Source: Siphonodentalium dalli
Lineage: Eukaryota > Mollusca > Scaphopoda > Gadilida > Siphonodentaliidae
DNA length: 64,000 bases
Assembly (NCBI GenBank): GCA_032622095.1
Contig: CP136067.1
Coordinates: forward strand, 94,354,707 to 94,418,706
Direction: 5' to 3'
The notes beneath the pieces were generated by a model. It did not search any database and had not been told where the DNA came from. It saw only the letters and a program-made list of their open reading frames with translations. Shown in pieces: positions 10,201-61,320 of the stretch. Position 1 is the stretch's first letter. Each line of letters begins with the position of its first letter. The position numbers and the translations under genes were made by a program.

Positions 10201-13200
10201 ATATTATGCCAGAAAATTTGAAATAAAATCAATATTAATTGATAGAAGCGTTTCCAGACAGGGGTCTTCGATTCATATTTATTATTTTATACCCAGGAAA
10301 CTATATAAAACTTGCTATAGGAAAAGTAAGGACCATCTTTAATAATAATCAACTGTTTTTTTTATTAAAAGGCTGGCACTGTAGCTACAATGTAGGCTTG
10401 TCATGATTATTCAATTAATCGACTAACCTTCGACAGGTGTGGTAGTCGACTGTTATTTACTTTCGTCGACGAATCGCCCCGGGGGAGGGGGGGTGTGGGT
10501 ATGGTCCTGTATGTGAGCAGGACTATGCATGCACTGATGGTCCAATGACGTGCCTGGAAGAAACATTTAACAGCTTATGCAGCACAATTTACCTCCTGGC
10601 CGCCTGTTCTCTCATCAGACTTGTCCCAATGCAGCTTCCTTTGCCTTTGATGTCGCAGCCGACATTTGGCGATCATCTTCAAAGAATTCTGTGTGCAACA
10701 TGTTCTCACAGTCCTTGTCAGGCCAGCGGCTTTCTTTGCTTTTGATGTCAGCGCTGACGCAACTTTTTATAGAAAATGTCCAGGTTATACATGGCAATAA
10801 ATGTGACTGCATCACCGTCACCCCCCCCACAAAAGATAAAATATCTGCCACTCTCTACATAAGTCCTTGTTAACTGCAGTGCAAGTGCATGCCTTTCGCT
10901 GCAGTTTCGCTCTTTTAGCGAACTTAATGCGAAGCACATGCTCTGCCGAAATACATATCGGTGACTCGTAGCTGAGATTAGCTTTACTTCATGCAATTTT
11001 GCACAGTTTCTGTCACGTCGTGTGTGAAGTTTGCAGAAACATCGGGCTCATCAGCAATTCTGGGCAGTGTTTAATAGTAAGGGCATGTTAATAACTAAAT
11101 CGAGACGAATGAGAGCATTAGTGTTTGTTATGAAAAAAAATAGGGAACACTGAAAGTTTATAACTGTGTTCAGAATGGATGTAAAGTAATCATCGTAATT
11201 TCGCATTGATCACTTGTTCATCTGGATGTAATATAGGGTGAATATATGAATGATTAATCGACTAACCGTTGACTATACCAGTTGATTACTTGATTCTGAA
11301 ATATTCGTGGCAACCCTAATTGTAACAGAAATGTTTACATAATAAAGGTTTTAGCATGCGGCGACTCATGATCAATAACAAAAATAAGAACAAGTTTTAT
11401 CTATTTTTTCATTTTCTTCTTAGTTGCAATGGTTGTACAATATTTCACATTTACCCAATAACAATAGTATGTCCCTTTCACTGAAGATCGCAGAACATGA
11501 CATGACCCTCTGACGATAATCACTTTCAAATTTCAGGACAGGGATTTGCAGATAAACGGAAAAATAAGGCAAAAAATGAATACCTCAATCTTCTTCGGAA
11601 AGAAAAGAAGAAAGAAGTGTATGAACAAAAGAGAACTGGAGAAACATCTCATAAAGAAACTGGGTCAAAACAGAAAGAAACGAAACAGAAAGAAATGAAA
11701 CAGAAGGATCATAAACAGAAAGAATATAAACAGAAAGAATATAAACAGAAAGAATATGTACAGAAAGAATATAAACAGAGAGCGGCACACTTCAAAGGCC
11801 AGAAAGGGTAAGGTATCACCAGGGTTTCCGCTAGATGGTCAGTGGGTCTCTAGCTCAGATTTTCCCTCCCACACATACTATACCCATACATGTCCCTTTC
11901 CAAAGATTAAATGATAACATATTTATACCAGTATCTCCCAATCATATTTGTACCAGTATCTCCCACAAAACCCAAATGGGAATTATGAACAAAAGTAGTT
12001 TTATTTGCCAGCTAAAGCTGACCACCAGAGAACAATTTCATTGAAAAAAAACTCTCCCATGATACATACATTGACAGTTATTACAGGATATACATATTTT
12101 ACATACAGTATCAATGTTATATATTTCCAATGAAAACACCCTTGCATTACTTAAAGGCCTATTTAATTTTCGAGTAACTGATTATTTCTGTAATAGTGCC
12201 TTTTTATACAGTTTTAATAACAATCTATGCCATAAAATATGATTAAAGTACTATAATTCATCACTATTTGGAACATCTGTGTCTCAGAGGGTGTCCATAG
12301 AATAATAGAAAATAGCCGAAATATAGAGAATTCAAACTATAGTTTATTTTCAATTGAAGGGGAATAACTCTATATCTTATTCCCCTTCCATTGAAAATGA
12401 AAGACTTTGCAGAAACTTGAGCACAGAACAGACTCCAGTATCTCAACAAAAACAACATATTCACAGTTTATTACATCAAATAAGTTGAAAATACAATGTT
12501 TTGGAGCTTCCTCTTTCAAATGGTATATAATATGACATATATTTTATATATTGTGAACTGGTGGTTCGAAAATTAAGTGGGCCTTTAACCTTTCAGTTTG
12601 TTTTAAAATAAAACTACAATTGCAATACCTTGAATTTGTATCCCTTAGGGAGCCTCGCATGCACTTATATATATTGATCTGGTCCATTCTCCATTTGATG
12701 GTTGTTTTGATAATAAATGTGCAGATGGCACTGGATCTATTCAATCAATATGAGGGAATATTGAGTCATCATAAGTTTAAACAGACATCGAAGCCTAAAG
12801 TTAAGCTGTGTCAGTATACACTCATATGGTCTATTATCCAATTGGATGGTTGTTTTGATCATAAACGTGCAGATGACACAGGTCAATTTGAGGGCATATT
12901 GAGTCGTCATAACTAATTTCAGCCACAATATACTGTAGATAACATCTTCATATTCATCATTGTGTTTGCATTCCAGAAGTGGTAAAGGATTGAACAAATT
13001 CTCAAAAGTCAAGAAAGAATTTGAGACCAAAAAAGAAAAATTACGTGAAAAATATGAGGTGAGTATAAATTTCAAGCGAATTAAAACGACTAATCTGTTC
13101 CAACCAAGCCTGCAAATAGTGTGTCTGTCATTGGCAGAATGAGGTCGCCAGAGGGTGAATATAGAGATGCTATCCCGCATGGTGGGCTAGCATCACCAAA

Positions 13201-31500: not shown

Positions 31501-34198
31501 ACGAACATCCTTTTGGCAGTGTAGGCCAGCACGAGGCTATGAGCTGTGATTTGGGGGAAAGCCACTACAGAGACTTAAATTTACAAGGAAATCAATCCGA
31601 TGTGCGCAAACAAACTATAACTCGGAGGGAAAAATTCCCCCTCCTGGTTCACTATTACCCCAGCCCCTCAAAGTCCCACCAATTTGCCTCTCCATTGGCT
31701 AGTCATCTCATGAAGACCAAGCTAACACTCAACATGTGGTGGGAGGGGTGTATTTTTTCCCCTCCGCAGCATCTTAAAAAGTTCACCTCCCCAGGAAGTG
31801 TGCATACAAACACATTTTTTATTTTGGCCTATAAATACTATAGATATATCACCGTGGCACGCGACCTTGTTTTTATCCATCCATTGATGATAACTGAAAC
31901 AAAACAAGTCATCGGTATTCAGCTGTTATCAGATGGAAGTCTCATCTGATATCTTTAGAAACATTAGCTTCCTTTATCATGACCTCACTAATTAACCCAT
32001 TCTCACGGGATGGGGGGGGGGGGGGGGTCATGGCTCATGCACGAGCTGATTCTTTGCGAGGAGTGCTACGGATAATTTGCAAGGAAGACTGACCGAATTG
32101 CACTTCATTCTGATTTAATGCTATTTTTGTCTAAAACAGAGTAAAAAAAAAAAACTCGCTTGGTTGATTTGGACAGAAAAATGTCCAAATGTAGCCGATA
32201 GACTGGGCGGTGCTGGGGGGTGACCGTCGCACATCAGGGGAATTTATGCGACCATCATTTTCTTATGGGAAAATTACTCTAGTTTTCGAATTCAGAGGGC
32301 GCCGAGCCGAAATAGGTGACAAAATATAAATTTTCACTATGTTTCATACGGTACCCTACCGAAAAATAGACACATTTTCAGCGGTTTGACAGGCAATAGA
32401 CAACCGGCTGACCGGGCATCAAAATGGGAAAGAATGAACACATATTTGCCATTTATGGGGCTAATGTTCACACTTAATCAGATTCGACATTGTTTTTTGC
32501 GTTCGTTCTGATTTCGTGACGTCATGGTAAAATATGTAGCGTGACGCGTCAAAACTTCATGGCGATTCAGACAAAGTGTCGTGCGTCAACTCTGTGCAAA
32601 TATAGCATATCTGTCGAATTCTTCCAAGTTATATATTTTTGGAAATGGAAGGGTATCCCTACAAAATGATGTTCCCATCTGTATTATAGATCTCCAATTG
32701 GTAAACTAATCGACAAAAACTTAACCCTCACCCCAATTTCACAAATATCCACTTAAATGCATCCATACAGGTTGTGCCCAATAAAACATCGACAATGCAC
32801 ATATTATAGTGTCATACAGTGTAGAACCATCCCGGAACTCGGAGAATGTAAGATTTCGTTCAAATCCTAGATTAGGAAGGTAATAAAATCCAAGATGGCG
32901 TCCAAGATGGCCGGCACGTTTTATATTGGCACTCTGTACACAACGAGTGTGCACACCGACTGGAAAATCGCAAGTGCTTTATTGTAACTTATCTTTATTA
33001 CATAGAGCTGTATCGTATAATATGTATAAGGCAATTGGTTACGTAAAACCGATGATGGAGACCAAAATGTCGGCCATAAAACCCAAAAATGTTCCGATAA
33101 AGTTACCGGCTTCTGAGTTGCAATAGCATCAGCCTGTTATGAGGTTTGTAGCTTGTTCGTTCGTGCATATATGTCTGCGGATAACGTGATCCGAATCCGT
33201 TAAAACTATTGGCATTGAGAAAGTAAATACTCATTTTTTTTCTCAAAATCGAAATGCAATGCCAAATTTCCACAATGGGACTGTTTCAACCTGATATCCA
33301 TTTTGTTGTATACAAGTCAAATTTGAACAGCTATCAAAGAGTCAGGAACAGCTATCAAAGAGTCAGGAACAGCTATCAAAGAGTCAGGAACAGCTATCAA
33401 AGAATCGGAAGCAATTTAAGAAAAATACCCATAAATATTCCGCAGCTATTTAAAATCTTCTCAACGAATCCGCAGCGGCATTTTTTACTTTGTAAAACGC
33501 CAATAACTCGACGAAATATAAATGTGTTTCTGTTATTTTAAATATATTAAATTTGTTTATCAGCGTCTCCGTGAGGCTAGCCGCTGTCGACTCGCCTCGG
33601 AGGCCTGTGGGTCGCCGTGCATTGATCTCGGACTGGCGTCGGAGGCAACGTGGTGGCCATATGCGTTGTCACGAAAGCGAGGTGGTCCTCACAACTGAGA
33701 CCATATATCGCAAAAAATCAACATCATTGTAAATTATAAATAAGTACTTTCGTCTCCAATGGGATTTACTATAAAAGTGTCAGTAACATTCCAGCCTAAA
33801 TTACAATACTAGCTGATGACAAATTAGTAAACCACTGCATCTAAACTTGAGTATGGATTTGTTTTAATCTCCCAGATTATCGTCGGATAAACATTAATTG
33901 TCAGAAATTATTCAATGGGCGATAAATGTCATCCGCTTACTCGCAATTGTCCGTAGCATTCTTCGCAAAGAATCGGCATGTGCATGAGGAATTGTTACGG
34001 TCTACTCGATGTGGTGAAAATAGGTGACAAGAAAAAAATATCTAAATGTAAGATAAGACTTGAAAGCCTAAATTTAATTTGCACAACTTGAGCCAACTGG
34101 GATTTGGCGATATATATATTTATTATTAATCGTGTCACACAAACCACATTGGGATTACAGATGGATTGTTTCTTCATATAACAAATTTGAATTATGAA
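31501..34198. other. No gene seen; diverged repeat and a 21-bp tandem
   Basis: 31843-31995 resembles 40265-40440 (ATCCATTGATG, ATAAC.GAAACAAAA, CAGTATTGAGCTGTTATCAG-like words, then ATGACCTCA). A 136-codon open frame over it (31539-31949) has no recognisable domain. At 33326-33409 a 21-base unit (AACAGCTATCAAAGAGTCAGG) repeats four times and keeps a frame open, giving NSYQRVR repeats. I see no evidence that this is translated. Confidence 0.5.
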
Positions 34199-34680
34199 TT
34201 AAAGACTCCTATCTGGAAACGCTTCTATCAATTAATATTGATTTTATTTCGAATAGTGTCTGATATAATGCGATGATTAATAGGGACAATATTTGTTCTA
34301 TATTTAGAACAAACCGTTCAGGCGATATCAGGTAGCGATCGAGATTATTAGAATGCTCCCATATTGCTACGCACCGAAAGTCACATGTCTCAGATCGATT
34401 GTTTGGATTGTTATATTCTATAGTTACAAGCGATGACGAGTCTAATTAACGTTTATTTGTGACAAAATTACACAATAAACGTTCCGGTCTCTGTCAACAG
34501 TAACCACTATTGGTCGTTAGCTAAACGATCTCCCATGTTTATACCAGAAGATATTCGAAATATAATCAATATTAATCGATATAGAAGCATTCATATCTAA
34601 TATTATATACAGCTGAAACTATATAAAAATGTGCTTACAAAGAGATAAATCATCTTTAATATTATTTGTTCATCTTTTGT
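34199..34680. mobile_element. Foldback-type element related to 10205-10345
   Basis: TCTGGAAACGCTTCTATCAA and TTAATATTGATTTTATTTCGAA at the left are answered by TTCGAAATATAATCAATATTAAT and TATAGAAGCATTCATATCTA near 34555-34600. Confidence 0.6.
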
Positions 34681-34750
34681 GATAATGTTGATTCAGTGCT
34701 GTACCTTGACACTGATACATATAAAATATCTCTGTACTTTAACCCTTCCA

Positions 34751-36379
34751 CAGAGACGTGGCGATAGGGTGGGGTTTTTTGGGGGTGGGGGTGTCTCCAC
34801 CCCCCCCCCCCAACTTTGGTCAAAATTTTCAACAGTTGGAAATTTCATACCTGCCAAAACATTAGTTGGAAATTTCACACCAACAATAGTTTGAAAATGT
34901 TCTTGTAGTTTGATTATAAAACTATTTATTGGGGGAAATTTATTGTTTTTGGACCAATATTTGGATATGTTCCTATTTTTGGTAAAAAATTTGGACAGAA
35001 GTGGTCATCAGTTGGAAATTTTCCAACCTTAGGGGGGTGACAGGTTGGAAATTTCCAACACTTGGAAAGCTTGTGTCCTGGTCCCTCCCCCGTGGCCAGT
35101 CAAAAACTGCTAGTTAATTTAAGAAAACAATATTGTCATACATTTGGTCAACATTGTCATTGGAATTGTCATCAGTTGGAAATTTTCCAACCTAAGTGGG
35201 GGTGTAGGGTTTGAAATGTAGGAAGGCTTGAGGCTAGTCCAGATGCTAGGATTTTGCGAATTTCTTGTTCAGATTTCAAAATGTTCGCACACCGGGCCGA
35301 ACCTGTCGTTTCCTCTCCCCATGGCCAATCAAAACTGCTAATTAGTTTAACAAAACAATATTTCACTACATTTGGTCAAACTTGTGGACAGAAATGATCA
35401 TCAGTTGAAGAATTTTCAAACCTGATGATCGTAGTATGTTAACGGGAATGGGTCCGTGTGACGGACCCGCAGCCGGCCTGGCGGAAACCCTGAATATATA
35501 CCATCCATGTATATAAGAGTCCCTCTTATTTGTGGCAGGCAAGCTAGCACAAGCTAGCACAAGATACATGCATTTTTTGGTCAGATATAGGCACATATGT
35601 TCACAACTTGCCAAGAAGATATGCTATTTGCAATTGACAAGATCATGTTGTATCAAATAATCTGCAATGTGTATATCAAGTCACTATTGCATCACAGTCT
35701 TAATTATAAAGTAACCTGTGGGGTGCTTCGATTCCACATGTTCCAGTCCAACTTGGTCACGGATTATACTTAAATATAGACATGAGGCCTGTAACAAGAT
35801 GCCCTCGAAATTGAGTCATTTTAATTGACACATAACGCTCCAATTATGAGTGGTCAAACGTCATGATATTAGTTACGCTGAAAGGGTCACTCTCACCAAA
35901 AAAAGTGCTGAAGGGTAGACAGGGTTTGAAAATGTGCTGAAGGGAACACAGGGTTTGTGATCGGCACTATTTATATTATAACACCGGAAAGCTTCAGTTG
36001 AGGTCAGTCTAGATGCTAGGATTTGCGATTTTATTGTATAGTTTTCAACATTTTCTCACACCGGGCCAAACAACCATGATCGGCCCGGTTTGTCCTGGTC
36101 TCTTGTCCGTAGCCGTGTGATTTTGTCTGGAATTAGACCACTAGATGTTTTTTTTGTGCAATTTTCAGGTTAAAATATCTTAATGTTCTCATACCGGGAA
36201 TATAGAACTATGGCTTATGAATATATAGGAAATTAGGCGTGAGCACAGAGGTCCAAGGGGAGGGGGTGCAAATGATTTAGGCAAAACTTGTGTTTGGTCT
36301 GATTCTGATTCAAAGGGGGGGGGGGGTGCAGTTGGAATTTCCCCCCAACGGAGACCCTATACCTATAGCCACGTCCCTG
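34751..36379. mobile_element. Non-autonomous hAT-type element, 1629 bp
   Basis: The termini CAGAGACGTGGCGATAG and CTATAGCCACGTCCCTG are inverted and flanked by 8-base near-identical target copies (CCCTTCCA at 34743-34750, TCCTTCCA at 36380-36387), as for hAT elements. The interior shares long stretches with 38764-39946 (ATCAGTTGGAAATTTTCCAA, TAGTTTGATTATAAAAC, CACACCGGGCCGAAC). No transposase frame is seen. It sits inside a TTAA-flanked MITE: left TTAACCCTTCCA, right TCCTTCCATGACTGGAGC. Confidence 0.88.
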
Positions 36380-36539
36380 TCCTTCCATGACTGGAGCTTC
36401 CTGAAATGATTTGTATTTTTGAATATATATCCATGTGAAACTTTGGCAACAATGAAGCATAGTTTATAGTGTTTTAGAAATATGCTGAAATATTTTGGTA
36501 CATTTTCAGTTTTTCATTAGCTCTAAATATTAATGCACA

Positions 36540-38035
36540 TGTTGCTGTTGACATTGACATGTATATGGGAACATGTCATTCTGGGGTTATTCGGCAAAAA
36601 CATGACCACCAGCGGCCATCTTGGATTTTAATCTTTCCATGACCAAATCCTTTGGCCCGTGCTACAGGTCATACCTTTGGTTGGATCATTATGAAATTTG
36701 TCATGGCTTTTGACATGTAGATGGGAACGAATCTTTTTGGGGTCATTCGGCAAAAAACATGGCCGACAGCGGCAATCTTTTATTTCAAAATTCAATCCAT
36801 TAGCACGGGCTACAGTCCGTACTGCTCGCCTGATCATTATTAAATTTGTCATGTATGTTAACATTGACATGTTGATGGAGACGAGTCATTTTGGGGTCAT
36901 TCGGCCATAAAACATGGTAGTCGGCAGCCATCTTGGAAATTACTCTTTGCATGACTAAATCCTTCCTTTGGCATACGGGCTATAGGTAGTACCTTTAGAT
37001 GGATCAATATGAAATTTGTCATGGCTTTTGACATTGACATGTAGATGGGAACGAGTTTTTTTTTTTTTGGGTCATTCGGCAAAAAAACATGGCCGACAGC
37101 GGCCATCTTTTATTTCAAAATTCAATCCATTAGCACGGGCTATATGCCGTACTTTTCACCTGATCATTATGAAATTTTCAATGGATGTTAACATTGACAT
37201 GTAGATGGGAACGAGTAATTTTGGGGTCATTCGACCATAAAACATGTCCGCCGGCAGCCATCTTGGAATTTACTCTTTGCATGACTAAATCCGTTGGCAC
37301 GGGATATAGGTCGTACCTTTGGATGGTTCATTATGAAATTTGTCATGACTGTTAACATTGACATGTAGATGGGAACGAGTGATTTTGAGGGTCAATCGGC
37401 AAAAAAAAAACAGCAGCCATCTTGGATTTCAAAATTCAATCCATTAGCACGGGCTACATGCATTTTTGTGGTCTGATCATCATAAAATGTGTCGTAGACA
37501 TTATCATTGACATGACTGTAGATGGGAACGAGTCGTTTTGGGGTCATTCGTCCATAAAACATGGCCACCGGCAGCCATCTTGGATTTTTGTATGACTAAA
37601 TCCTTCGGCACGCCCTACAGGCCACCTCCCTCATCCGCTCATCACCAATCTTGATATGGATCTTCGGTGTGACCTCTAGATGGCAGCCATATTTGATTTT
37701 ACTCTTTTGCATGACTAAATCCTTTGGCACACGTACCTACAGACCACATTCCTCGTCCGATCGTCACCAAACTTCATATCGATCTTTTGGGTGACCAACA
37801 GATGGGAGCCATCAATTATTTATTTTGAATTTCATTGGAAAACATGGCCGCCAGCGGTCATCTTGGATTCCACCGTATGGCTAAATCGTTTGGCACTCCC
37901 TATACAGACGACATCCCTTGTCCGATCGTCACTAAACTCCATATGGATGACCACTAGATGGGAGCCATCAATTGTGTTCATGTTGACATATAGTATTACT
38001 AAGACATTTCAACTTTCCGCACTCCATTGACTTTA
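36540..38035. repeat. Tandem array, ~330-bp higher-order unit of two monomers
   Basis: AACATGGCCGACAGCGGC..ATCTT, TTCAATCCATTAGCACGGGC, GACATGTAGATGGGAACGAGT and GGGGTCATTCGGC recur. The A monomer near 36759 recurs near 37088. The array decays after about 37600. Open frames on both strands are by-products. Confidence 0.85.
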
Positions 38036-38079
38036 ACGCATGACATTATCTCCCCTCCAAGTTGAGCTAAATAAAGGGG

Positions 38080-38755
38080 GGATACTGTTTTGCATATGTC
38101 TGTGCATCCGTCGGTCCGTACGTCCATCCGATGTCTGTTCATGTCATAACTTTAACAGTAATGCTTGGATCTCAATGAAATGTTGTATTGATGTACACTA
38201 CTATGAGGACATTCAATGGAGTGTTCAATCGTTTTGTTCGAGTTTTCCTTTCTAGAATTACTCATCTTTGTTTATCTGGACATTTTGGCTTTTTGTCACT
38301 CAGAATGATATCTGTGCTGGTTCCAATTTGAACAGTAGTACTTGGATCTCAATGAAATTAGATGTGGATGTTCAAAATGACATCAAATTGAGTGTTTTGT
38401 TCGGGTTTTCCGTTTTAGAGCTATTCATCTTTGTTTATCTGGACATGCTGGATTTTTGTCTATCCGAGCAGATATATCCACCACCGGTTGTTTAGTCTCA
38501 ATGAAATTTTGTATCAATGTTTACTACAATGAGGACATTCAATGAAGTGTACAATCGTTTTGTTCGGGTTTTGCATTCTAGACTTATTCTTAACCACAAT
38601 TTGTTGGAACTTCGTGAAATTTGGTATGAATGTTGACCATTATGAGGATATTCAATGGAGTGTTCCATCGTTTTGTTCAGGTTTTTTTTATAGAGTTATT
38701 CATCTTTGTTTATCTGAAAATGCTGAGTTTTGGGTCCGTCTGCATGAGTATCTTA
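38080..38755. repeat. Tandem array, ~150-190-bp unit
   Basis: TCTCAATGAAAT, TATGAGGACATTCAATGGAGTG, CGTTTTGTTCGGGTTTT and TCATCTTTGTTTATCTGGACA recur four times with variable spacing. Confidence 0.8.
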
Positions 38756-38763
38756 GTCATAGG

Positions 38764-39946
38764 CAGGGATGTGGCTAGAGGGGGGGGGGGGGTGAGTGGG
38801 GGGGGGTGTCTCACCCCCCCCCCCCAGCAGAGAGCTATATTTTCAATAGTTGGAAATTTCTTACCTGCCACAACGAAATTTCACACCAACAATAGGTTGA
38901 AAATGTTCTTGTAGTTTGATTATAAAACAATTTATTGGGGGAATTTATTGTTTTTCGACCAATATTTGCATATGTTCCTATTTTTGGTCAAAAATTTTGA
39001 CAGAAATGGTCATCAGTTGGAAATTTTCCAACCTTAGGGGGGTGACCGGTTGGAAATTTCCAACACTTGGAAAACTTGTGTCCTGGTCTCTCCCCCGTGA
39101 CCAGTCAAAAACTTCTAGTTAATTTAAGAAAACAATATTGTCATACAATTGGTCAACATTGTCATTGGAATTGTCATCAGTTGGAAAATTTCCAACCTAA
39201 GTGGGGGTGTAGGGTTTGAAATTTCGAACAGTAGGAAGGCTTGAGGCTAGTCTAGATGTTAGGATTTTGCGATTTTCTTGTTCAGATTTCAAAATTTTCG
39301 CACACCGGGCCGAACCATGGTCGGCCCGGTGTGTCATTGCCCCATTCACATGGCCAATACAAAACTGCTAATTAGTTTAGCAAAACAATATTTTACTACA
39401 TTTGGTCAAACTTGTAGACATAAATGGTCATCAGTTGAAGAATTTTCCAACCTGAGGGGGAGTATGAGGTTTGAAATTTCCAACACTAGGAAAGCTTCAG
39501 TTGAGGCCAGTCTTGATGCTAGGATTTGCGATTTTCTTGTATAGTTTTCAAAATTTTCTCACACCGGGCCGAACAACCATGGTCGGCCCGGTGTTTCCTG
39601 GTCTGTTGTCGGTAGCTGTGTGCATTTGTCTGGAATTAGATCACTAGTTGTTTTTTTGGGGGCAATTTTCAGGTTAAAATATCTTAATGTTCTCATACTG
39701 GGAAAATAGAAGCATGGCTTATGAATATATAGGAAATTAGGCCTGAGCATGAGGTACAAGGGGGGGGGTGCAAATGGAAATATGCAAAAAGTTGTGTTGG
39801 TACGATTCCGACTCAAGGGGGGGGGGGGTGCAAATGGAATTATGCAAAAAGTTGTGTTGGTGTGATTGCGACTCAAGGGGGGGGGTGCAGTTTGGAAATT
39901 CCCAAGGTGGACACCCCCCAGCGGAGACCATCTAGCCACATTCCTG
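38764..39946. mobile_element. Non-autonomous hAT-type element, 1183 bp, perfect 8-bp target duplication
   Basis: CAGGGATGTGGCTAGAGG at the left and CCATCTAGCCACATTCCTG at the right are flanked by exact copies of GTCATAGG (38756-38763 and 39947-39954). It shares most of its interior with 34751-36379 but lacks about 450 bases. G/C runs lie just inside both ends. Confidence 0.93.
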
Positions 39947-40129
39947 GTCATAGGTTGTAGGTATGCCCACCCGTGGACAAGAATCAATCTCTTGTTTTGT
40001 TTCATGAAAACCCTCCTTGTGAATACCAGACCATTCCAATGTACGCTTTTGCAAATGACTGGGGAAATCATTTAGTATAGAAAGGGTTAACACTATACTG
40101 ATAATGTATATATGGAACATTGTATCCAT

Positions 40130-40175
40130 CAGGTTGGTAGCCCCCCCCCCCCCCCCCCCACCCCCCCCCCCCATG
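40130..40175. repeat. C-rich low-complexity run
   Basis: A block of over 30 C residues broken by one A, around 40141-40172. Confidence 0.9.
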
Positions 40176-40979
40176 CACACTAACTGACTCTGTTATCAGT
40201 TTCATTCATTCATATTTCAGTTTGTTAGCCATTTGAACCTCGCATATATCCACAATGGTATAAATATATTCACGGGACGTACGCGATAACTATGTTACTA
40301 CCCATCCATTGATGCTGATGATAACGGAACAAAAAACAACGCAAGCAATCAGTATTGAGCTGTTATCAGTTGTAAAACATCACCGGGTATGTAAAGAAAC
40401 AATTACTTCCTATACAGGATGACCTCATACATTAACAAAATATTCAGAAGATATATATAACGATGTATTCCTCTGGTGTTGGCCCTCCCCCACACCACTG
40501 CCTCCGGTATCAGTTTCATACATTCATATTAACATAGTTCAGTTTCTTAACCATATTCATATTCTAACTATGAATAGATTGGAGACATCCCACTATTTTG
40601 GGATTCCCTTTGTAAGAATAGATATTTCTTACCTGTTATATAGTGTATATAAGCTAGGTTTATCGCTAATATGATCATTTCATAAAGAAGATTTATTCCG
40701 ACTTGATCAAGATCTTTTTAAATTTTCTATAAGCATAAGACAGTTAAAAATGAACCATCTTACCATAGTGAATCTTCTAGCAAGTAAGTTACTTGTCTGT
40801 AGTTACTCTGCCGTAACATAATTATGTCTCCCAAAATGTCAGACCTTTTGGATGAATTGTTTATTAATGACATTTGGTGCACCCCCCCCCCCCAAACCAT
40901 CTTTGGTTGGAATTATCCAACTGGTATCTAAAACTTGTGCAACTGTTAGATACTTCAAAGTAGGAAAATATTCTATTTT

Positions 40980-42110
40980 TGTCAAAAAAAACATTCATTT
41001 AGTGATATCACATATTCGATTTTTATGATATCACATTTTGTGATATCACTTATTCGAATTTGTGATATCATATATTTATTTTGTGATATCAATAATTCGG
41101 GGGGGACGTATTTATTGATATAACTAAATGCATTTAGTGATATCATAAAAATAATTACTGATATCATAATATGAATTTATGATATCACAAAATCGAATTA
41201 TTGATATCAATAAATGCTTCCTATTTTGTGATATCATATATTCGATTTTATTATATCTTAAATTCATTTTATGATATAATTAATTCGAATTAGTGATATC
41301 ATATATTTATTTAGTGATATCGATCAATACTAGCTATTTTATGATATCAGGTATTAGATTTTATTATATCACTAATTCACGGGGTGCCGTTCTTCAATTT
41401 ATCACCTATTTAGTAATATCAATAATTCATTTTATGACATTACTAAATGAATATGTTATATCACAAAATCGAATATATGATATCATTAAATATTTTTATT
41501 ATATCACAAAATGATTTTAAGATATCACTTATTCCAGTTTGTGATATCATAAATCCATTTTTTTAATATCATAACTTCGAATTATTGATATCACAAAATA
41601 GTAAGCATTTAGTAATATCAATAATTCGATTTTGTGATATAATAAAATGTTGAGGAATTATTGATATTACAAAAATAAATTCAAGATATCACAAAATGGA
41701 ATTAGTGATATCATAAATTAATTTGTGATGTCACAAATTCGAATATATGATATCACAGAATAAGTATAAGCAGTTAGTGATATCAATCATTCGATTTTAT
41801 GATGCCATAAAATGATTTAATGATATCACCAAATGTTGAAGGAATAGTAGTCTAGCTATGCGATTTTCTATTTATTGACATTACATAATTAATTAGTGAT
41901 ATCACAAATTAAATTTTATGATATTACATAGTTCAATTTTGTGATATAATTTTTTTTATTTATGATATCACAAATTGGAATTTTTGATATCTTTAAAATC
42001 ATTTTGTGATATCATAAAATATTAATGATATCATATATTTGATTTTGTGATATCATATATTCATTTAGTGATATAATTAATGAATTATTGATATCACAAA
42101 ATAGGTAATA
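40980..42110. repeat. GATATC satellite-like array (~25-30-bp unit)
   Basis: About 40 imperfect copies of TTTGTGATATCA(T/C)(A/T)(A/T)ATTCGA(T/A)T, in both orientations and each centred on the palindrome GATATC, fill 1.1 kb. GGGGTGCCGTTCTTC (41380) and its inverse GAACGGCGCCCC (42118) may mark ends of an inner element. Confidence 0.92.
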
Positions 42111-42525
42111 AATATAAGAACGGCGCCCCATAAATCTAATGTTGTGGCATGAAATTCCTAACTATTGACAATTTGGACCAAAATGGAGGGAGTTGAGGGA
42201 GCCCTCCTCGTGTCGCAACGTCTCTGTTGTTATATCAAATGCGCCCAACAAATATATTAACTCACCTTCTTATCTACAAGATGTTTTAGTCAGTCACAGG
42301 ACAGTGTTATCTTTGTATCCTTCGTGTTGAGCCAACAGATGGGACCCGAGATTGGATTTTCCACCATAAATTTTATCTGAAAATAGCTGGGTGTTCTTCC
42401 ACTGAGCCAATAATATCAATTTAATTTTAATACCGATTCAAAAATGAATGTTATAAATTCATTTCCGCAGCTGCTTTTTATTCATAACGGACAATTCACG
42501 AAGGGAAAACATATCAAGTTTAAAG

Positions 42526-42547
42526 ATGGCAGAGCATACAGAACAAG
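42526..42547 (+). CDS. Candidate cytokine exon 1 (residues 1-7)
   Basis: ATG at 42526, seven codons (MAEHTEQ) plus one base, donor CAAG|gtaatt. A tiny first exon ending in phase 1 is what IL-6 has, but there it begins a signal peptide and here it does not. The upstream 5' region shows no clear TATA box. Another first exon with a signal peptide could exist and be missed. Confidence 0.7.
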
Positions 42548-45500
42548 GTAATTTTCACACTTGATTTGAATACATGTACGTAGGTTGGGAAAATAATTTG
42601 GGGCTTATTTATATCCTCTATAGAAATGACAGCACACTTGCCCGCACTACCCCTCTAGATTTACGACATTCATATGCATTCTCTCTTATTCCCCCATAAC
42701 GAGTTATGGGCGGTATAGAGGAATCAGATTAATTGTCCGTCCGTCCGTAGACGCAAATTTATCCGAGCTTTTATTCCTACATTTTTAAATAATTTTTTTT
42801 TAAACCTGAAACATGTATTTAGTGCCATGTGAACAAGTGCACCTGCGATTATGGGGTCTGTCCGACTTTTGTGTGTGGAGTTATCCCCCTTTTTCGACTT
42901 AAAATTGTTCACAACACTCCAATCAGTATGTCAGTCCATTTATGTGTTCGTCCGACTTACCTTTCCAGAGCATAACTTGAGTGAGTAAAACATTTTCCAC
43001 ATTGGCTACCATGAGGGTATTCTTAGTCGCATTGGAACAACCCACCTCAAGTTTAGGCTGTTTATATCCATTAGCGTGCAGTTTCGTTTATTTTTCTTTC
43101 AGTTGCGACTTTGCTGCCAGAAGGAACACATTGCTTTCGTCTGCCATACACAACAAATTCAACAACAGTAAAAACAACAATAACAACACCAACAAAAACA
43201 ACAGTGACTCTTCAACCTTCCATCGCAGACAACGAGAAGCTTAACACGCACGGTGAAGATGGAAACCCACACGTTGCTTCTGAAAAGCTTGCCCGTGATA
43301 TCACTTTCAAATATTTACCAAGAAAGTTCATCAAAACATTTACGGCAACCATGGCTGGCGGTTATCATAGTAACGAAACCACATCTACTACCAACGTACC
43401 TCGTTCCTCATTTCGGATTTCAACAGTTGGTTTCCAGGGTGTGACACCAGCGCCACCGCCAAGGGCAGAATCCATGGAAACATCCGAACCAAACGACAAT
43501 GGTCTGCCCCAGCAACATTCGTTGAGGTCCGGGTTGACATTGAACATTCTTAATAGTCTGACAACCCTGTGTAGAGAAATCGTTAATGTGGCTATTAACA
43601 AATATAAGGTAAGAAAAAAATACAAATAAATATATTCAGTTCATCTTAACCTAACGATATTGTGTTTCTTCCGGAACACAATTGCATCAATAACATATTG
43701 TTTTATCAAGCCCGATTAAGTATGGAGAATGGTACATATCATTTGATATGGTAAAGACCATTTTATTTTAGAGTTATTCATCTTCATCCGCAATTTGGTC
43801 CGAGACCCATTCTCGTCGACTTTTCACAAGTATCGGTGGTGAAAAATAATAGATTTCAAAAATCGATATCTGATCACTCTGAGCTTTGATGGGTGGGTTC
43901 CTCGACTCGAATTAAATATTTTTACCCCCCCCCCCCCTCCGAAGCCATAGAAATAGTTAATTCGGATTATTCATATGTAACCGTTCGGTAGTATTTTATC
44001 TTATCAATGTACTTACACAGTGTAGCCTTATCAGTGTACTTACACAGTGTATCCTTCTCAGTGTACTTACAAAGTGTAGCCTTATCAGTGTACTTACACA
44101 GTGTATCCGCATCAGTGTACTTACAGTTTAGCCTGATCAGTGTACTTACACAGTGTAGCCTGATCAGTGTATTTGTATAGTGTAGCCTGATCAGTGTACT
44201 TACACAGTGTAGCCTGATCAGTGTATTTGTATAGTGTAGCCTGATCAGTGTACTTACACAGTGTAGCCTGATCAGTGTATTTGTATAGTGTAGCCTGACC
44301 AGTGTACTTACACAGTGTACTTACACAGTGTAGCCTTACCAGTGTACTTACACAGTGTAGCATTATCAGTGTAGCCTTATCAGTGTACTTGTACAGTGTA
44401 GCATTCCCAGTGTACTTACACAGTGTAGCTTTATCAGTGTATTTACATAGTGTAGCCTTATCAGTGTACTTACACAGTGTAGCCTTATCATTGTACTTAC
44501 AGTGTAGCCTTTTCAGTGTACGTACACAGTGTTGCTTATTTTATGGTTTATCAGTGTACTTACACAGTGTATCCTGATCAGCGTACTTAACGGTGTAGCA
44601 TTATTAGTGTACTTACACAGTGTAGCCTTATCAGTGTACTTACAGTGTAGCACTGTGTAGCCTTATCAGTGTACTTACACAGTGTAGCCTTATCATTGTA
44701 CTTACACATTGTAGCCTTACCAGTGTATTTACACAATGTGGCCTTAGCAGTGTACTTACACAGTGTATCCTTTATATCAGTGTACTTACAAAGTGTAGCC
44801 TAATCAGTGTACTTACATAGTGTAGCTTTATCACTGTACTTACACAGTGTAGCATTATCAGTGTACTTACACAGTGCAGCCTTATCAGTGTACTTACACA
44901 GTGTAGCCTTATCAGTGTACTTACACAGTGTAGCTTATTTTACGGTATCATTTCAGTCGTATTCCGGACTTGATGAATATTTCATTGAGATGACATCACA
45001 GAAGTTAAACACATCTCTACCAAACCTGTATGCACAAAAAGGAGCGCGGGATACAACCAGGGAACCAAATATGGTATGTTGTTTGCATTAAAGTTGTTTA
45101 AAAATCAAAGCAATTATGCATCTCACCCACGCCACCATGCAGTCTCCGTGTATCGAAAACAACGTTAATATAAATTATTCCTAGTTTCTGTTTTAGTTAA
45201 TGTAAAGAAGTTGCATACAGTCAGCTGCAATACCACAATCCTTCACAGTTTGTTACGTCAGTGGTTGGAAGTTATTATCAAAATCAATCTTGAGGTACTC
45301 AATCAGTGTTCGCGCTGTTGGTAGCCAAATTAGCCAATGGCTAATCTTTTTCGAATTTGGCTAATAAAAATTTCATTTGGCTAAACTTTTTTTAACCCAA
45401 ATGGAGACTGAAAGCATGGGGCCAGAAAGCTAATTAATAAAAGCGCTCAATAGATCGACATTCAAGACGAAGTATAGGTGACGAAATTTTTTCTTTATTT

Positions 45501-48479
45501 TCGTATAAAGGGAAACCCGATCGACAACTCTATCAACCAAGCGATCACAAAGTGATATGCAATCATCTTTAGTTTTCACAAGACGGACATTCAAAGACGC
45601 ATGGACATAAAACCGATGAATTATGACAATGTGAAGAAAGCAATGTTTTGTAAAGTGCATTGACGCCGGTATATAAGCAATTTGTTCGTAACAGGCTGTT
45701 TTAATCTGGAGAAAGATTACGTCACTCTGCACTAAGCATTATTAATTTTTACATTTAATCCCCTAATCCCCCAGTCAGCCCATTGTCTGTCTGGTCACTC
45801 ATGCCGCTCCTGCACAATGCATGTTTATGATGACATTGTATTTATGACGGTCGAGGTTTATGAGCATCAAGTGTAAGACAACAGCTTAATCAGCCAAATG
45901 TGAATCACGACATATATATTTTGTGGCTATTTGTCGTCAAGACCGATACAGTCAAAATAATATGCATGCTTTTATGACAGATTGTAATTTGATAATGGCG
46001 TAACAATATTAAGAGTAACTCAATCCGATCAACAACAATATTTCCTCAAAATACGCTTTTATAGTTATCAAAATCGATTAATTACAACCAAATGATGCAA
46101 ACCGCTGTCAACTATGATAAAATAATCCCGAAAACGTGTTATTTATCAACATGTTGTTCAACGAAATATGGCCGTAAGATCACTTGATTATCACGAAATT
46201 TTTCCGTATTACCACTTGATATTAGAGTTATCCATCTTCGTCCGCATTTTTCCCGAGACGGTCACCGTGACGATTTTTTTCCAGGCCACAAATAAGTACA
46301 TATCTCGAGAAATAACAAATTAAAAAAATCGATATCTGATCACTCTGAGTTTGGTGGGTTCCTCGACTCGAATAAAATATTGTTTTACCCCCGAAGTCAA
46401 AGAAATAGTAATTTGGGATCATTAATTCGGATTATGCATCTTTAACGCGTATTGTTAGTGTAATAGATTGTCTAACAAATAAGCTCCAAATCATTTGTTC
46501 CGTTTGATATATATATATGCCAGTTGTTGAATATAATACCACATGTACTGCTGAACTTCTAGACAGAGAAACGCCCTGTCGTTTCCCATGTAGGCATCTT
46601 AAGATAAATAACCAGTCCAAATTTACGGGGAAAACATTCTTAACCAATCTTGAAATAAGCCATGCACCCCCTTGCATGTTACCATATAAAATAAAATACA
46701 TGTTACCATATTTGATTCCAGGATGTCTTGCGGAAATTAGCAGAATTTGTGAAGTCGCATCATTTATATTTGGTGAACATTTTGGAAATGTATCAGAGCG
46801 ACTGTCGACCAAGTGGCAGACGAGATAAATTCGGAGATTTTTGGTGCTCTTGTAACCAGGTTGCCGGAATTCTAGAGGCGATGGGAAGACAACTCCACGA
46901 TCAAATACAAAAACTGGTAAGTGTCACCAGATCTAGAGACAATACAAAAATATCCTTGAATCTTATAGACTACCCCTCAATATAATCTATTCCGTGCACA
47001 TGAATTACAGTTACTGCACCATTTATATGTCATAATAATATAGATATCGGGCATTATAACGCTATATATGAGACTCATAATATTGTGACTAATCGAAATA
47101 ATTGTAAAGGAGGCATATACATGTATACATGCATATATGATGAATCAAAACCAATATACGCCTTTCTACATTGCCCGTACATTTTGGTCCCGACAGCTTG
47201 TGTGAAAACTTCTTATGACAAATATGTCGTTTTTATTTTCTCCTTATTTGACCGGGGGGGGGGGGAATTCCGGCACGTATGCCGGGGTGGGTGGGTGGTC
47301 AAAGCCACCAACAAGCAATTTTTTTCGCAACTAGTGTTTTGGCAATGAGTTGGGCTTCAAAACCACTTTGAATGAGAGAAATAATGTAATTCATAGGTAA
47401 ACTGTTATCGTGTTGTATTTTGTTGCAAATTTTGAAATCCAAGATGGCCGCTGGCAGCCATGTTTTTTTGGCCGAATGACCTCAAAATTACTCATTCCTA
47501 TTTACATGTCCATGATAAATAGTATGCACAGAAATTCATATACAGCTGTTTACAGTGATTTCCCCCCGCAAATCTCTGTTTTAGTGTTAAAAAGGGGGTG
47601 GGTGTCAAAAAATGGTTGGAAAAAACTGCCGAAAACGGAAAAAAAATTGGCGGTGGGGGTGGGTGGGTACAACAAATGATCGAAAGGGAAAAAATGCCAT
47701 ACGTGCCTGAAATTGTTTTCCGACCCCCCCCCCCCCCCCGATTTGACTTTCAAAAAGGCTTTGGTCATCTTGCAAGGGCACTTCTCTGACTTGATTTCTG
47801 TCATTCTGGTGTGCTAGGTTTTGGCGCCCACACACCCTGGACTAGTGTTACCTGGTAGACAACAACTTACCAATTTTGGTTACCCATATATACACAGCAC
47901 GACACGACGTGTAAATGGGTTTGTCGATACGGCACGAGTGCTGTCGCGGAAGGATAGAACGAGAGGCGCTTGCGCCTCGAGTTCTATCATTCCGCGACAG
48001 CACGAGTGCCGTATCGACAAACCCATTTACACATCGTGTCGTTCTGTGTTTATTACACGCTTCGCATCCTAGAATCCGTGCATTAAAATACAGGATTAGA
48101 AGGTTTATTTAGGCTCATACAGGGCGTGTTAGTCATGTGTGATGATTCTTTTATTTAAATAGTTACATGCAGTTTCATGGTTGAGGCGAACGTCATGTAC
48201 GTCATTGTACGTCAACGAGAAGTGTATGGAACGTTCGTTCCATACGGATTTGTAAATATGGAACAGCAATAACACTGTACTTCTAGGAACAAGCGTGTAA
48301 TAAAAACAATATTCTATCCACAGAACGCACATCATGCAGGAGAGATTCCGTTCTCGCGAGAAACAGCCTTGATTCACAGCCACCAAGAATTCGGGCAGTA
48401 CGCCGTCACAGAACTGAAGGCTCTCGAGAAACAGTTACCGCTAATAGAACACACCCTGCACGCGATGGTCGAAGAATGA
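42526..48479 (+). CDS. Candidate IL-6/CNTF-type class I helical cytokine, whole gene of five exons
   Basis: Exons 42526-42547, 43103-43608, 44957-45073, 46722-46916 and 48324-48479 join in phases 1-0-0-0 into 331 residues. Residues 1-150 are low complexity (Thr-rich 24-43, Pro-rich near 123-127). The rest reads as four amphipathic helices: A about 150-176, B 214-242, C 250-283, D 292-330, with a 39-residue A-B link and a short B-C turn. In helix D, counting from F290, Q is at +11, E +12, Q +15, Y +16, V +18 and L +24. From memory human CNTF has F, Q, E, Q, W, V and L at the same offsets, and cardiotrophin-1 and CLCF1 keep F and W. The FxxK lysine is Glu293 here. B and C sharing one exon, and the phases, match IL-6/G-CSF genes. 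Sequons lie at N26, N98 and N194. No signal peptide is visible. The gene model is strong; the family is an inference. Confidence 0.85.
42548..43102. other. Candidate cytokine intron 1
   Basis: 555 bases. It contains GTCCGTCCGTCCGTAGACGC (42738 onward), a common invertebrate repeat word, and AT-rich sequence. No other exon is recognised. Confidence 0.6.
43103..43608 (+). CDS. Candidate cytokine exon 2 (N-terminal tail and helix A)
   Basis: The acceptor TTTTTCTTTCAG|TTGCGA completes Val8 and the donor TATAAG|gtaaga is phase 0. It covers the Thr-rich tail, a long polar region and helix A (GLTLNILNSLTTLCREIVNV and following, residues 151-176). It is the longest open exon in the window and is free of repeats. 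Confidence 0.9.
43740..44945. repeat. Candidate cytokine intron 2: family-A fragment and a 27-bp minisatellite
   Basis: 43750-43975 is a partial family-A MITE (TGATCACTCTGAGCTTTGAT, GGGTTCCTCGACTCGAATTA) with a C run. From about 43990 to 44940 there are over 30 copies of TGTAGCCTTATCAGTGTACTTACACAG, ending about 15 bases before exon 3. Each unit carries an acceptor-like CTTACACAG on the + strand and GTAAGTA on the - strand. Long open frames on both strands here are repeat artefacts. Confidence 0.92.
44957..45073 (+). CDS. Candidate cytokine exon 3 (A-B connection, residues 177-215)
   Basis: The acceptor TATCATTTCAG|TCGTAT and donor CCAAATATG|gtatgt are both phase 0. It encodes SYSGLDEYFIEM..NTSLPNLY.., 39 residues with no strong helix over most of its length and a Pro/Asn/Thr-rich loop. 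Confidence 0.88.
45074..46721. other. Candidate cytokine intron 3
   Basis: 45074-46008 holds no recognisable element apart from a local GGCTAA repeat near 45330-45385. 46009-46445 is a family-A MITE. Open frames on either strand overlap the next exon out of frame and are not coding. Confidence 0.6.
46009..46445. mobile_element. Family-A MITE, diverged copy
   Basis: TTAA|GAGTAACTCAATCCGATCA at the left and TTCGGATTATGCATC|TTTAAC at the right. The interior matches family A (TTGTTCAACGAAATATGGCC, GTTCCTCGACTCGAATAAAA). Confidence 0.8.
46722..46916 (+). CDS. Candidate cytokine exon 4 (helices B and C, residues 216-280)
   Basis: The acceptor TTGATTCCAG|GATGTC and donor AAACTG|gtaagt are phase 0 at both ends. 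It encodes DVLRKLAEFVKSHHLYLVNI.. (helix B), a short polar turn CRPSGRRD and KFGDFWCSCNQVAGILEAMG.. (helix C), the latter with two Cys separated by one Ser (257, 259). Confidence 0.92.
47240..47830. repeat. G/C-run-rich fragments in intron 4
   Basis: G runs near 47254-47264 and C runs near 47726-47740 bracket GGGTGGGTGG words and a piece of the 36.5-kb array (AAGATGGCCGCTGGCAGCCAT near 47443). Similar material recurs at 59555-59830 and 60985-61120 (GGGGGTGGGTGTCAAAAAAT). Confidence 0.6.
47899..48042. repeat. 144-bp near-perfect palindrome in intron 4
   Basis: Arms of 71 bases around a two-base centre (GAGGCGC-TT-GCGCCTC) with only a few mismatches; the arms include GGTTTGTCGATACGGCACGA and its inverse. 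It is GC- and CpG-rich, unlike the flanks. Just downstream, GTGTTTATTACACGC (48046) is inverted as GCGTGTAATAAAAAC (48292), suggesting a further small element against exon 5. Confidence 0.92.
48324..48479 (+). CDS. Candidate cytokine exon 5 (helix D, residues 281-331) and stop
   Basis: The acceptor CTATCCACAG|AACGCA is phase 0 and TGA lies at 48477-48479. It encodes NAHHAGEIPFSRET, then the long helix with HQEFGQYAVTELKALEKQL. F290 and the Q-E-x-x-Q-aromatic pattern are the basis for the CNTF-group comparison. Confidence 0.9.
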   Translation, partial: NAHHAGEIPFSRETALIHSHQEFGQYAVTELKALEKQLPLIEHTLHAMVEE

Positions 48480-48712: not shown

Positions 48713-49169
48713 TTAAAGTACTCAATCCGATTAAACACCCCTAAATTACTATTTCTTTGGCTTTGGGGGTAAACAATATTTGATTCGAGTCGAGGAACCT
48801 ACCCATCAACGCTCAGAGTGATCAGATATCGATTTTTGAAGTTTGGTATTGTTGTGGCCCAGAAACACGCCGTCAAAAGGATGGTCTCGGTCAAAATTGC
48901 GGATGAAGATGGATAACTCTAAAACAAGTGGTAATACGGCAACATTTCATGAATACTCAAGTGATAATACGGCGATATTTCGTTGAACAAAATGTTGATA
49001 AATAACGAGTTTTGGGAGTTTTGATACCACAGTTGACAGTGGTTAACATTATTTTAATCGATTTTAATCGATTCTGATAACTAAAGCGTATTTTAAAGAA
49101 ATGTTGTTGTTGTTGTTGTTGTATCTTGATGATATAAGGAGACCCTCTGATCGGATTGAGTACCTTTAA
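48713..49169. mobile_element. Family-A MITE downstream of the candidate cytokine gene
   Basis: TTAA|AGTACTCAATCCGAT and ATCGGATTGAGTACCT|TTAA, about 457 bp, with a GTTGTTGTTGTT run near the right end. Confidence 0.88.
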
Positions 49170-54385: not shown

Positions 54386-54948
54386 TTATCTCAATTTTCT
54401 GAAGGCTAATTTTAGAAATATACTCACCTTCTTCAGGAGCGATATATTAGCTATAGATATCAAACCATAAAACTTTTCTCGCGTTGGAGATAGCCAATAG
54501 TATTTTGGAATGTACTGTTCACGGATATCTCTAAATTCGTCGCATATCAGTAGGAGATGATACTCGTCCCCTATCCCGTTACCGCACTGTTCACATGTAT
54601 TACAAGGTATACTGTTTCGCCACCGCCCTTTTTCAACAGGGAGTCGGTGGTTTGCTGTTGTAAATTTCACCATATAAGGGATCAGATGATCTGGCAACTG
54701 AAGCAAATACCGGCTAATACAGGGGCTGGTTTTAATATTTCTGTAAAAAGTTGCTCTTGATGAATCAGATAATTCTAAATCGATAAAAAGTTTAGCCCAA
54801 TGCTGCTCTTGGGAAAGGTCTTAAATGGTGAATGTCCTGTTTAGATAAAGCGGACTGTGACTCCCATGTAGAACATAGATCAAGTTCATTCAGGGTGTTT
54901 GTCACAAAGTTAAGCCATTTTGACTTGCGTGTTAACTTGAGATCGTTG
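54386..54948 (-). pseudogene. C-terminal end of a non-LTR (LINE) retrotransposon ORF, broken
   Basis: On the - strand the last 106 codons of one frame (stop at 54386-54388) read LPDHLIPYMVKFTTANHRLP, EKGRWRN and CEQCGNGIGDEYHLLLICDE. This is the Cys/His zinc-finger-like tail (C..C..H) that follows the reverse transcriptase in many LINE ORFs. The same frame extends to about 54817 (EQHWAKLFIDLELSDSSRAT). A shift of frame there leads on to RKSKWLNFVTNTLNELDLCS, up to 54948 where a tandem array cuts it off. The reverse-transcriptase core and the endonuclease are absent, so it cannot move by itself. Confidence 0.88.
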
Positions 54949-59235: not shown

Positions 59236-61320
59236 TTGCGTTTCATGTAATTGTTTAAACAAACCGTGCATCATTAACTTTTATTTCATGTAATTTCCGA
59301 CCCAACGACCGCCCATAGAAAGGGCATTTCAAAAAATGTTGTGTTGGAATCTGATGATATGGGGACCAATGAATGGGATTGAGTACCTTGTATAGTTGGG
59401 GATGTTGTTGTTGTTGTTGCTGCTGTTTTTAAGACAAATCTCTGCAACGAGTTGCAACAAAATCCGCGTGCGTTTTGGAACAATTTGGAAATTAGAATGG
59501 TATATTAATGTACTATGTGAATACTATTGTTATATAGTATTTTGTATTCCACGTGTGGGGGGGGGGGGTGGGTGGGCATGTTAATGTTGATGCATTTCTT
59601 TAAATACTAAATACGCCCAGAATAGGAAACCTTCGGAGGAGCGAACCTTCGGAATATAGAAACTTCGGAATGGAGAACATTCGGAATAGAGAACCCTACC
59701 CGCGTGACCCATCAGCTCTGGCGGGCGATATTTTAGACGCCGAAATCAGGGGGGGGGTGTAATTAAAAAATTTGCAGGAAGGTATACCGCGGTGGGTGGG
59801 TGGCCCGAGGGGCAAAAAAAAAAACGCGTTTTTTACAACCTCATGCAAAGTTTTTACTATAAGACCTTTTGTGCCTTATTTGACATTTGTAACAGTTTAA
59901 AACATATAAGAATTTATAACAGCAAAAACACCATATTTATGTTAATGGGACCTCATATGGGCCTCAGTGGAGATGACATTAAGCATATAGGACAGTGCAT
60001 GGGTGAAAAAATTCCTTCATGACACCCTTTGGAAAGAAGCTTTGAGAAATGTAAAACTTAAATAAATAAACTTGTCTTGATGTAACTAAAGCCTAGATCA
60101 TTGTGTGCATGAAAAAAGAGCCAACAACTGTCTCAAACATAAATGTGACTATAATTGGCTAGAATAACTGTCATCACATTGTTCATCAGTGCATCAAGCC
60201 AATCGGTGAAATATTTGCATGTCTATCAACTCATATGATCTGTTACTCTCACAACACCTAAAATATCCAAGTCTGGCATATATGACTGTTTGTCATTTAT
60301 TATCACAAGACCTAAAGTATCTTAAATCTGGTATATATATAGTGCTGTGACTGCTTGTCATCTATATATATAAACGAGTAAGATCTGTCCAGATTTTTCT
60401 CTCAGACTCATGGATCGAGTTCAACCAAATTTGGAGTGGTGACTCGATGTACCCGTGTGGATGTTATAATGGTTTTTCAAAATTTTGAATTGAATAAAAT
60501 TGGTTTTGTTAAATTGAGCAAGGAATTCAATCTGAAAAAACATATATTAAAACAATATATATAAATCAAAATGTTTCAATGATAAAAATGTGCATGAAGG
60601 GGCCGCCGCGAAATAAAGGCTCTGTCTAAGATCCAAATGTGTGCGAAGTCTCACAAAGGGGGCCACAGGTATCGCCGACGTTGACTATAGGCTGTTTCGG
60701 TTAGTTTAGTATAATAGAAGTATGTTGTTACAGTAGACTAACATAAGTGGTATGGAATATGTTAGATAATGGGCTGGTTGACAGACTAATAAGGAAATAG
60801 TTAGAAATTATGAAATTATGTGTATCCTGCACAATGACCTAGGTTTACAGATGATCAGCAATTTATAAAACTTTTTTTTCAATTAAAACCGCTTCTGAAA
60901 CTGAAATTGAACTAATTGAGATCTGATTGAGATCATATGAGTGATATCAGTAGAGTTTTATGCGGTTTAAACCAAATTTTAGTGAAATTTGGGGGTGGGT
61001 GTCAAAAAATTGGGAGTAAAATTTTGTGTGTGTGCATGTTTGGCGGTGGTGGGTCACCGAAAATGCCAGATGCAAAATAACGGCATACCTTCCTGCAAAT
61101 TTGTTACTACCCCCTCCCCCGCCGAAATTACACAAAATGAGTCGCTACGCGTTCGTCAATTATACCGTTGGTGTACGTAACACAATCGTGGAAAAGTGGC
61201 AAAGCAAGTTGTAATACTATTAACACGTTCAGTGCCGACTACGAATTATTCCGACAACGAGTCATATGTTTGCATGCAGTTGAATGTGTGTCGGCAGTGA
61301 ACGTACTTTGTGTTGAGTTA
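59236..61320. other. No gene seen; G-run fragments and a CTTCGGAA repeat
   Basis: A G run near 59557-59567 is followed by five loose copies of a GAACCTTCGGAATAGA unit (59618-59697), then GGGTGGGTGG words near 59790 and related G/C-rich pieces at 60985-61120. The sequence 59840-60960 has no recognisable feature. Confidence 0.55.

Follow-up and report, generated by a model that had tools for sequence, protein, structure and literature searches.

The coding regions of the vertebrate class-I cytokine genes IL-6, EPO, GH1 and prolactin are divided among five exons, of 19/191/114/147/168, 13/146/87/180/156, 10/161/120/165/198 and 28/182/108/180/186 nucleotides (nt), respectively. The sums of these lengths match the lengths of the proteins, and the intron phases computed from them are 1-0-0-0 in each gene. 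The CNTF, CLCF1, CT-1, LIF and OSM genes, in contrast, have two or three exons. Among published descriptions, that of EPO places the A-B loop in the third of five exons (coding nt 160-246; PMC5473850), and that of the carp G-CSF genes gives the same five-exon structure as in human and mouse (PMC6389648). Helical cytokines have been recognised through an exon-intron structure that parts their helices at analogous positions, and the IL-10-type genes are likewise split into five exons, their introns lying between the helices and interrupting no codon; in IFNL2/3 a tiny first exon that ends in phase 1 is added (PMC2654155). The gene considered here lies on the plus strand of a 64,000-nt stretch of contig CP136067.1 (positions 94,354,707 to 94,418,706), the whole of which is referred to as the window. 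It is read as a gene for a secreted, divergent helical cytokine of the class-I (long-chain) type, a reading to which about even confidence is given.

The sequence-only reading of this stretch joined five exons in frame, at 42526-42547, 43103-43608, 44957-45073, 46722-46916 and 48324-48479 (+). They have lengths of 22/506/117/195/156 nt, are separated by GT..AG introns of phases 1-0-0-0, and encode a protein of 331 residues that ends in TGA, with intact frames in all five. This chain of phase-matched exons was reproduced. Exon 2 encodes the end of a predicted signal peptide, a Ser/Thr-rich stalk and the putative helix A; exon 3, in phase 0 at both ends, encodes a 39-residue A-B link; exon 4, likewise in phase 0 at both ends, encodes the predicted helices B and C; and exon 5, which includes the TGA, encodes a short C-D link and helix D.

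Compared with the vertebrate genes, this one shows the class-I arrangement: five exons, intron phases of 1-0-0-0, predicted helices distributed over exons 2, 4 and 5, and an A-B link in exon 3. EPO, IL-6, G-CSF and the GH/prolactin genes have the same five coding exons and the same phases, and in these genes, too, exon 4 encodes helices B and C and exon 5 encodes helix D. Exons 3 to 5 measure 117/195/156 nt here and 87-120/147-180/156-198 nt in the vertebrate genes. In EPO, as in this gene, the A-B link is found in exon 3 (PMC5473850). A phase-1 first intron, on its own, is an unspecific trait of secreted proteins, but the three phase-0 introns that follow it are not. Phase 1 is the intron phase in which signal-peptide proteins are otherwise richest (PMC1626468), so that three successive introns of phase 0 are not simply to be expected. 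Nothing speaks more strongly for a class-I-type cytokine than the exon layout, which had no part in the case made by the sequence-only reading. The gene differs from EPO, IL-6, G-CSF and GH/prolactin in having no detectable sequence similarity to them, a long stalk rich in Ser and Thr ahead of helix A, and an apparently short C-D link.

The gene is almost certainly real, because the triple formed by its exons 3 to 5 is unique in the window and has no counterpart in simulated windows, and because the composition of exons 3 to 5 is protein-like. The thresholds of the triple search were the splice strength of exons 3 to 5 themselves together with a protein-like composition, so that the reported exons pass by construction. 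At this strictness the two strands of the window hold five internal candidate exons with phase 0 at both ends, of which three are protein-like. A single ordered triple lies within 6 kb, and it consists of the reported exons 3 to 5. An ordered triple of the same strictness occurred in none of 100 order-2 Markov simulated windows, searched on one strand each. Pooled, exons 3 to 5 exceed sets of three random open pieces in protein-like composition (P 0.0002; singly 0.058, 0.038 and 0.003); the coding score of exon 2 is uninformative, its null having contained one piece. The four donors are good, with 1.4, 0.2, 1.9 and 0.2% of all GTs reaching their scores, as is the acceptor of exon 2, whose score is reached by 0.2% of AGs. 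For exons 3, 4 and 5 the acceptor scores are equalled by 7, 9 and 11% of all AGs, respectively; these acceptors are mediocre and form the weak point of the chain. A candidate polyadenylation signal, ATTAAA, lies 251 nt past the stop codon at 48730-48735 (+) as a simple pattern match. A paralogue was also sought within the window; the best non-self tblastn match, at 26152-26078 (-) with E 0.21, contains a stop, and the region was read and judged to be a chance match.

The first exon is the one part of this chain that was not upheld. As placed by the sequence-only reading, it encodes MAEHTEQVATLLPEGTHC in 22 nt ending in phase 1 (42526-42547, +), provides no signal peptide, and is a possible alternative first exon. 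An exon upstream of it, predicted at 40750-40783 (+; 34 nt, ending in phase 1 at the donor AA/GTAAGT), would encode the start of a signal peptide, MNHLTIVNLLA, and when spliced to exon 2 gives MNHLTIVNLLAIATLLPEGTHC-FRLP, which has a plain signal-peptide shape. Its donor scores 4.78 against 3.62 for the other exon, and the best 11-residue hydropathy of the resulting protein is 2.53 against 0.55. Four phase-1 ATG exons with a donor score of at least 2.5, this one included, lie in 34000-43100. Across both strands of the whole window, an equally hydrophobic start is found in 2 of 47 candidates with a donor score of at least 3.5, the other one lying downstream of the gene, and by that rate roughly 0.1 such first exon would be expected in the 9 kb searched. 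These comparisons are suggestive, although not proof, that the exon at 40750-40783 is the true first exon and supplies the signal peptide, and the exon at 42526 is probably wrong. The revised ATG has an A at -3, and a TATA-like TATATAAG is found about 100 nt upstream of it, at 40646-40653 (+), as a pattern match in an AT-rich region, where it is weak evidence. Reading through the exon 2 acceptor was considered as another start of the protein and rejected: the resulting RAVSFIFLS... is hydrophobic from the polypyrimidine tract and has no start codon.

With this exon the protein has 335 residues (the earlier numbering plus 4) and exon lengths of 34/506/117/195/156 nt. Its cysteines are residues 22, 168, 247, 261 and 263, and N-glycosylation motifs occur at 30, 102 and 198. 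The stalk (revised residues 23-152) consists of 27% Ser plus Thr, against 12% in the bundle region. Degenerate repeats of the TGATATCA type form an AT-rich block at 40996-42102, within the revised intron 1 and upstream of the first exon of the sequence-only reading.

The last 180 or so residues had been described from the sequence as looking like a four-helix bundle with a long A-B link, and they show helical periodicity. The 100-degree hydrophobic moment of the four segments jointly, whose limits were chosen by eye, was reached by only 4 of 5000 within-segment shuffles, and the segments taken singly gave p 0.014 for A (43528-43608, +; revised residues 154-180), 0.071 for B, 0.043 for C and 0.111 for D. 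A scan combining helix propensity with moment flagged B, C and D. AlphaFold2, run without an alignment, folds exon 4 alone into a two-helix hairpin (residues 2-28 and 36-64; predicted local distance difference test (pLDDT) 71, predicted template modelling score (pTM) 0.41), which places helix B at 46725-46805 (+) and helix C at 46827-46913 (+). Exon 5 alone folds into a single helix (residues 12-50; pLDDT 86, pTM 0.53). This is helix D, 39 residues long at 48357-48473 (+), which begins two residues after the Phe that the sequence-only reading used as its reference point. The B-C turn has about 7 residues and the C-D link about 12, while the A-B link is the 39-residue exon 3. The four-helix look of the sequence finds support for B, C and D, which are helical in the exon-wise folds, and less of it for A.

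The signal peptide supplied by the revised exon 1, the long A-B link, the amphipathic helices and the class-I exon layout can fairly be read as those of a secreted four-helix-type cytokine, but a number of observations weigh against this reading. An N-terminal stalk of 130 residues is atypical of vertebrate class-I genes. Helix A was not flagged in the propensity-plus-moment scan, and periodicity is the evidence for it. The C-D link, measured between the exon-wise helix ends, spans few residues for the overhand connection that an up-up-down-down bundle has at this place. A Foldseek search with the exon 4 hairpin returned 152 matches at E<=10 and none at 0.001 (best E 0.56), these are chance-level helical matches, and no cytokine is among the best 50 of the 152. 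The profile comparison with cytokine families that the sequence-only reading had proposed was negative as well: Pfam gave no family at E<=10, and hhalign against CNTF, CLCF1, CT-1, combined and five-member profiles gave probabilities of 0.1-1.7%, within those of 40 shuffles each. The rows of these profiles were drawn from the best 120 of 418 matches (the named rows being mammals), with rows of at least 300 residues, of which 8 were counted, left out. Their power is limited, the combined three-family profile detecting LIF at 84%, IL-11 at 86% and G-CSF at 58% but missing OSM, IL-6 and EPO, and the negative result has limited weight because IL-6 and EPO score as noise too. A PDB sequence search gave nothing relevant. 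Protein searches, which require shared 5-residue words and so miss distant relatives, gave no relative at E<=10 among 180 and 54 word-sharing candidates from a database that contains mammalian CNTF, CLCF1 and CT-1. Finally, a helix-by-helix test ranked the pairing of each helix with its own counterpart in the IL-6-type cytokines among 24 possible helix pairings. The protein of this gene ranked 15 of 24, while eight IL-6-type controls ranked 1-3 and EPO, which belongs to another class-I family, ranked 4. Pairwise alignment with nine human cytokines was tried and set aside; its 18 tests gave best p values of 0.05 (CNTF, BLOSUM45) and 0.065 (OSM, BLOSUM62), which is no signal, and reversed CLCF1 outscored CLCF1.

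These results bear on the competing explanations in different ways. In one of them, which the sequence-only reading proposed from residue offsets in helix D, the protein belongs to the IL-6/CNTF family itself. In the numbering of that reading residue 290 is F, followed by Q at +11, E at +12, F at +13, Q at +15, Y at +16, V at +18 and L at +24, all as stated, but the list is selective, and when 26 residues are compared in a fixed register, helix D shows some resemblance to CNTF alone. Against CNTF, one of the six families compared, it scores +20, with p 0.002 for plain shuffles and 0.028 for shuffles that preserve the hydrophobic pattern; the other five, CLCF1, CT-1, LIF, OSM and G-CSF, gave pattern-preserving p values of 0.28-0.60. 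CNTF, CLCF1, CT-1, LIF and OSM share with this protein the F where helix D starts. An aromatic residue directly ahead of this helix, where the family has F or W (PMC10022904), would also suit membership, as would the five-exon layout, which is like that of IL-6 and G-CSF. The same source describes the FXXK motif with which helix D opens (LIFR site 3) and, at site 1, a Trp within the A-B link (CNTF W64, CLCF1 W94). Here the motif reads F-S-R-E, its Lys replaced by Glu, and exon 3 contains no Trp, the sole Trp being revised residue 260 in exon 4. With Pfam empty, the profiles at noise level and the helix ranking far from that of the controls, membership in this family is not supported and appears unlikely. 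A distant kinship with IL-6/CNTF may be compatible with the negatives, which come from tests of limited power.

It is possible, though rather doubtful, that the gene encodes a secreted protein, all-helical and restricted to its lineage, with a structural, carrier or mucosal role instead of that of a cytokine, and that its exon layout is class-I-like by chance. Such a protein would account for the lack of a homologue or family match in Pfam, the protein searches, hhalign and the helix test, for the Ser/Thr-rich stalk, and for a phase-1 intron within the signal peptide, which is common among secreted proteins (PMC1626468). It would leave to coincidence the close fit of three successive phase-0 introns, exons of 117/195/156 nt and one helix unit per exon to the class-I layout. 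A helical cytokine of another kind, either class II (interferon- or IL-10-like) or Unpaired-like, is improbable. Pfam gave no match to such families, the class-I long-chain layout is matched by a 39-residue A-B link encoded in a separate exon, and intron 1 is in phase 1 here rather than in phase 0 like all introns of the IL-10-type structure; on the other side stand an oyster interferon-like protein reported with a class II-like modelled structure (PMC9756803) and the five exons, introns between helices and, in IFNL2/3, tiny phase-1 first exon of the IL-10-type genes (PMC2654155). That the chain is no gene at all, being a chance series of open segments or a decayed gene, would agree with the missing relatives and the mediocre acceptors of exons 3 to 5, but the exon composition, the unique triple, the empty simulations and the five intact frames render it very improbable.

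If the gene does encode a class-I-type cytokine, its product would enter the secretory pathway through a signal peptide encoded partly by exon 1 and partly by exon 2, and would carry a Ser/Thr-rich stalk of about 130 residues, probably O- and N-glycosylated. The C-terminal domain would be built from four amphipathic helices, the first two joined by a long link, in a presumed bundle topology. This domain would most likely act as an extracellular ligand that joins class-I cytokine receptor chains, either Domeless/gp130-like or CRLF3-like, and the pairing of these chains would then switch on JAK-STAT signalling.

Several repeats and open frames accompany the gene. Most of intron 2 is filled by a 27-bp minisatellite of about 35 copies (44000-44938), which ends just before exon 3, and intron 4 contains a near-perfect foldback at 47888-48053 whose two 82-nt arms are 90% complementary and lie 2 nt apart. 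Copies of a dispersed repeat occur in intron 2 (43842-43930), in intron 3 (46384-46433) and, inverted, downstream of the gene (48765-48853); minus-strand text near 29150 resembles this repeat by eye. Elsewhere in the window, two strong exon-like segments rich in Lys, Glu and Gln (11537-11807 and 12977-13058, +) perhaps belong to another gene and have no significant Pfam match. An open frame of 144 codons at 54389-54820 (-) has no Pfam match at E<=0.01, and is reminiscent of the Cys-rich tail of elements of the long interspersed nuclear element (LINE) type. A further open frame, at 59708-60019 (+), has a weak Pfam match to DUF316 (trypsin-like) of 19.0 bits, below the cut-off of 21.2, and no neighbouring open frame matched Pfam above its cut-off. 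Rfam gave no match at gathering scores, and a tRNA search found none.

Helical cytokines of invertebrates offer a further comparison, in each case by description. The amphioxus GH-like protein (GHl) has 208 residues against 335 here and very low identity to the vertebrate proteins (PMC9010856). The Drosophila Unpaired (Upd) proteins, ligands of Domeless, are invertebrate JAK-STAT ligands described as four-helix-type (PMC7378365), and oyster CgIFNLP is a claimed lophotrochozoan helical cytokine that is class II-like (PMC9756803). The novelty of the present gene depends on its host, because amphioxus already has divergent helical cytokines (PMC9010856). A 2021 survey reports no IL-6 superfamily member in invertebrates (PMC8226699). 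A 2026 survey describes IL-6-type ligands as vertebrate-only and the receptor, JAK and STAT as already coexisting in Mollusca, and leaves the activator open (PMC13203501). A lophotrochozoan class-I ligand was not found among the literature matches listed, which come from open-licence PMC papers.

It can be suggested tentatively that a protostome, possibly lophotrochozoan, class-I cytokine has retained the five-exon 1-0-0-0 layout of the vertebrate genes, in which case both ligand and layout would predate the split between protostomes and deuterostomes. The assignments of fold, lineage and family are inferred; they make the ligand question testable. Were the protein a class-I cytokine, it would be a concrete candidate with which to test that question, and it might be the ligand still missing for the IL6R/Domeless-like or CRLF3 receptors of molluscs. 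It would also mean that gene layout and helix pattern together can reveal class-I ligands where sequence search fails.

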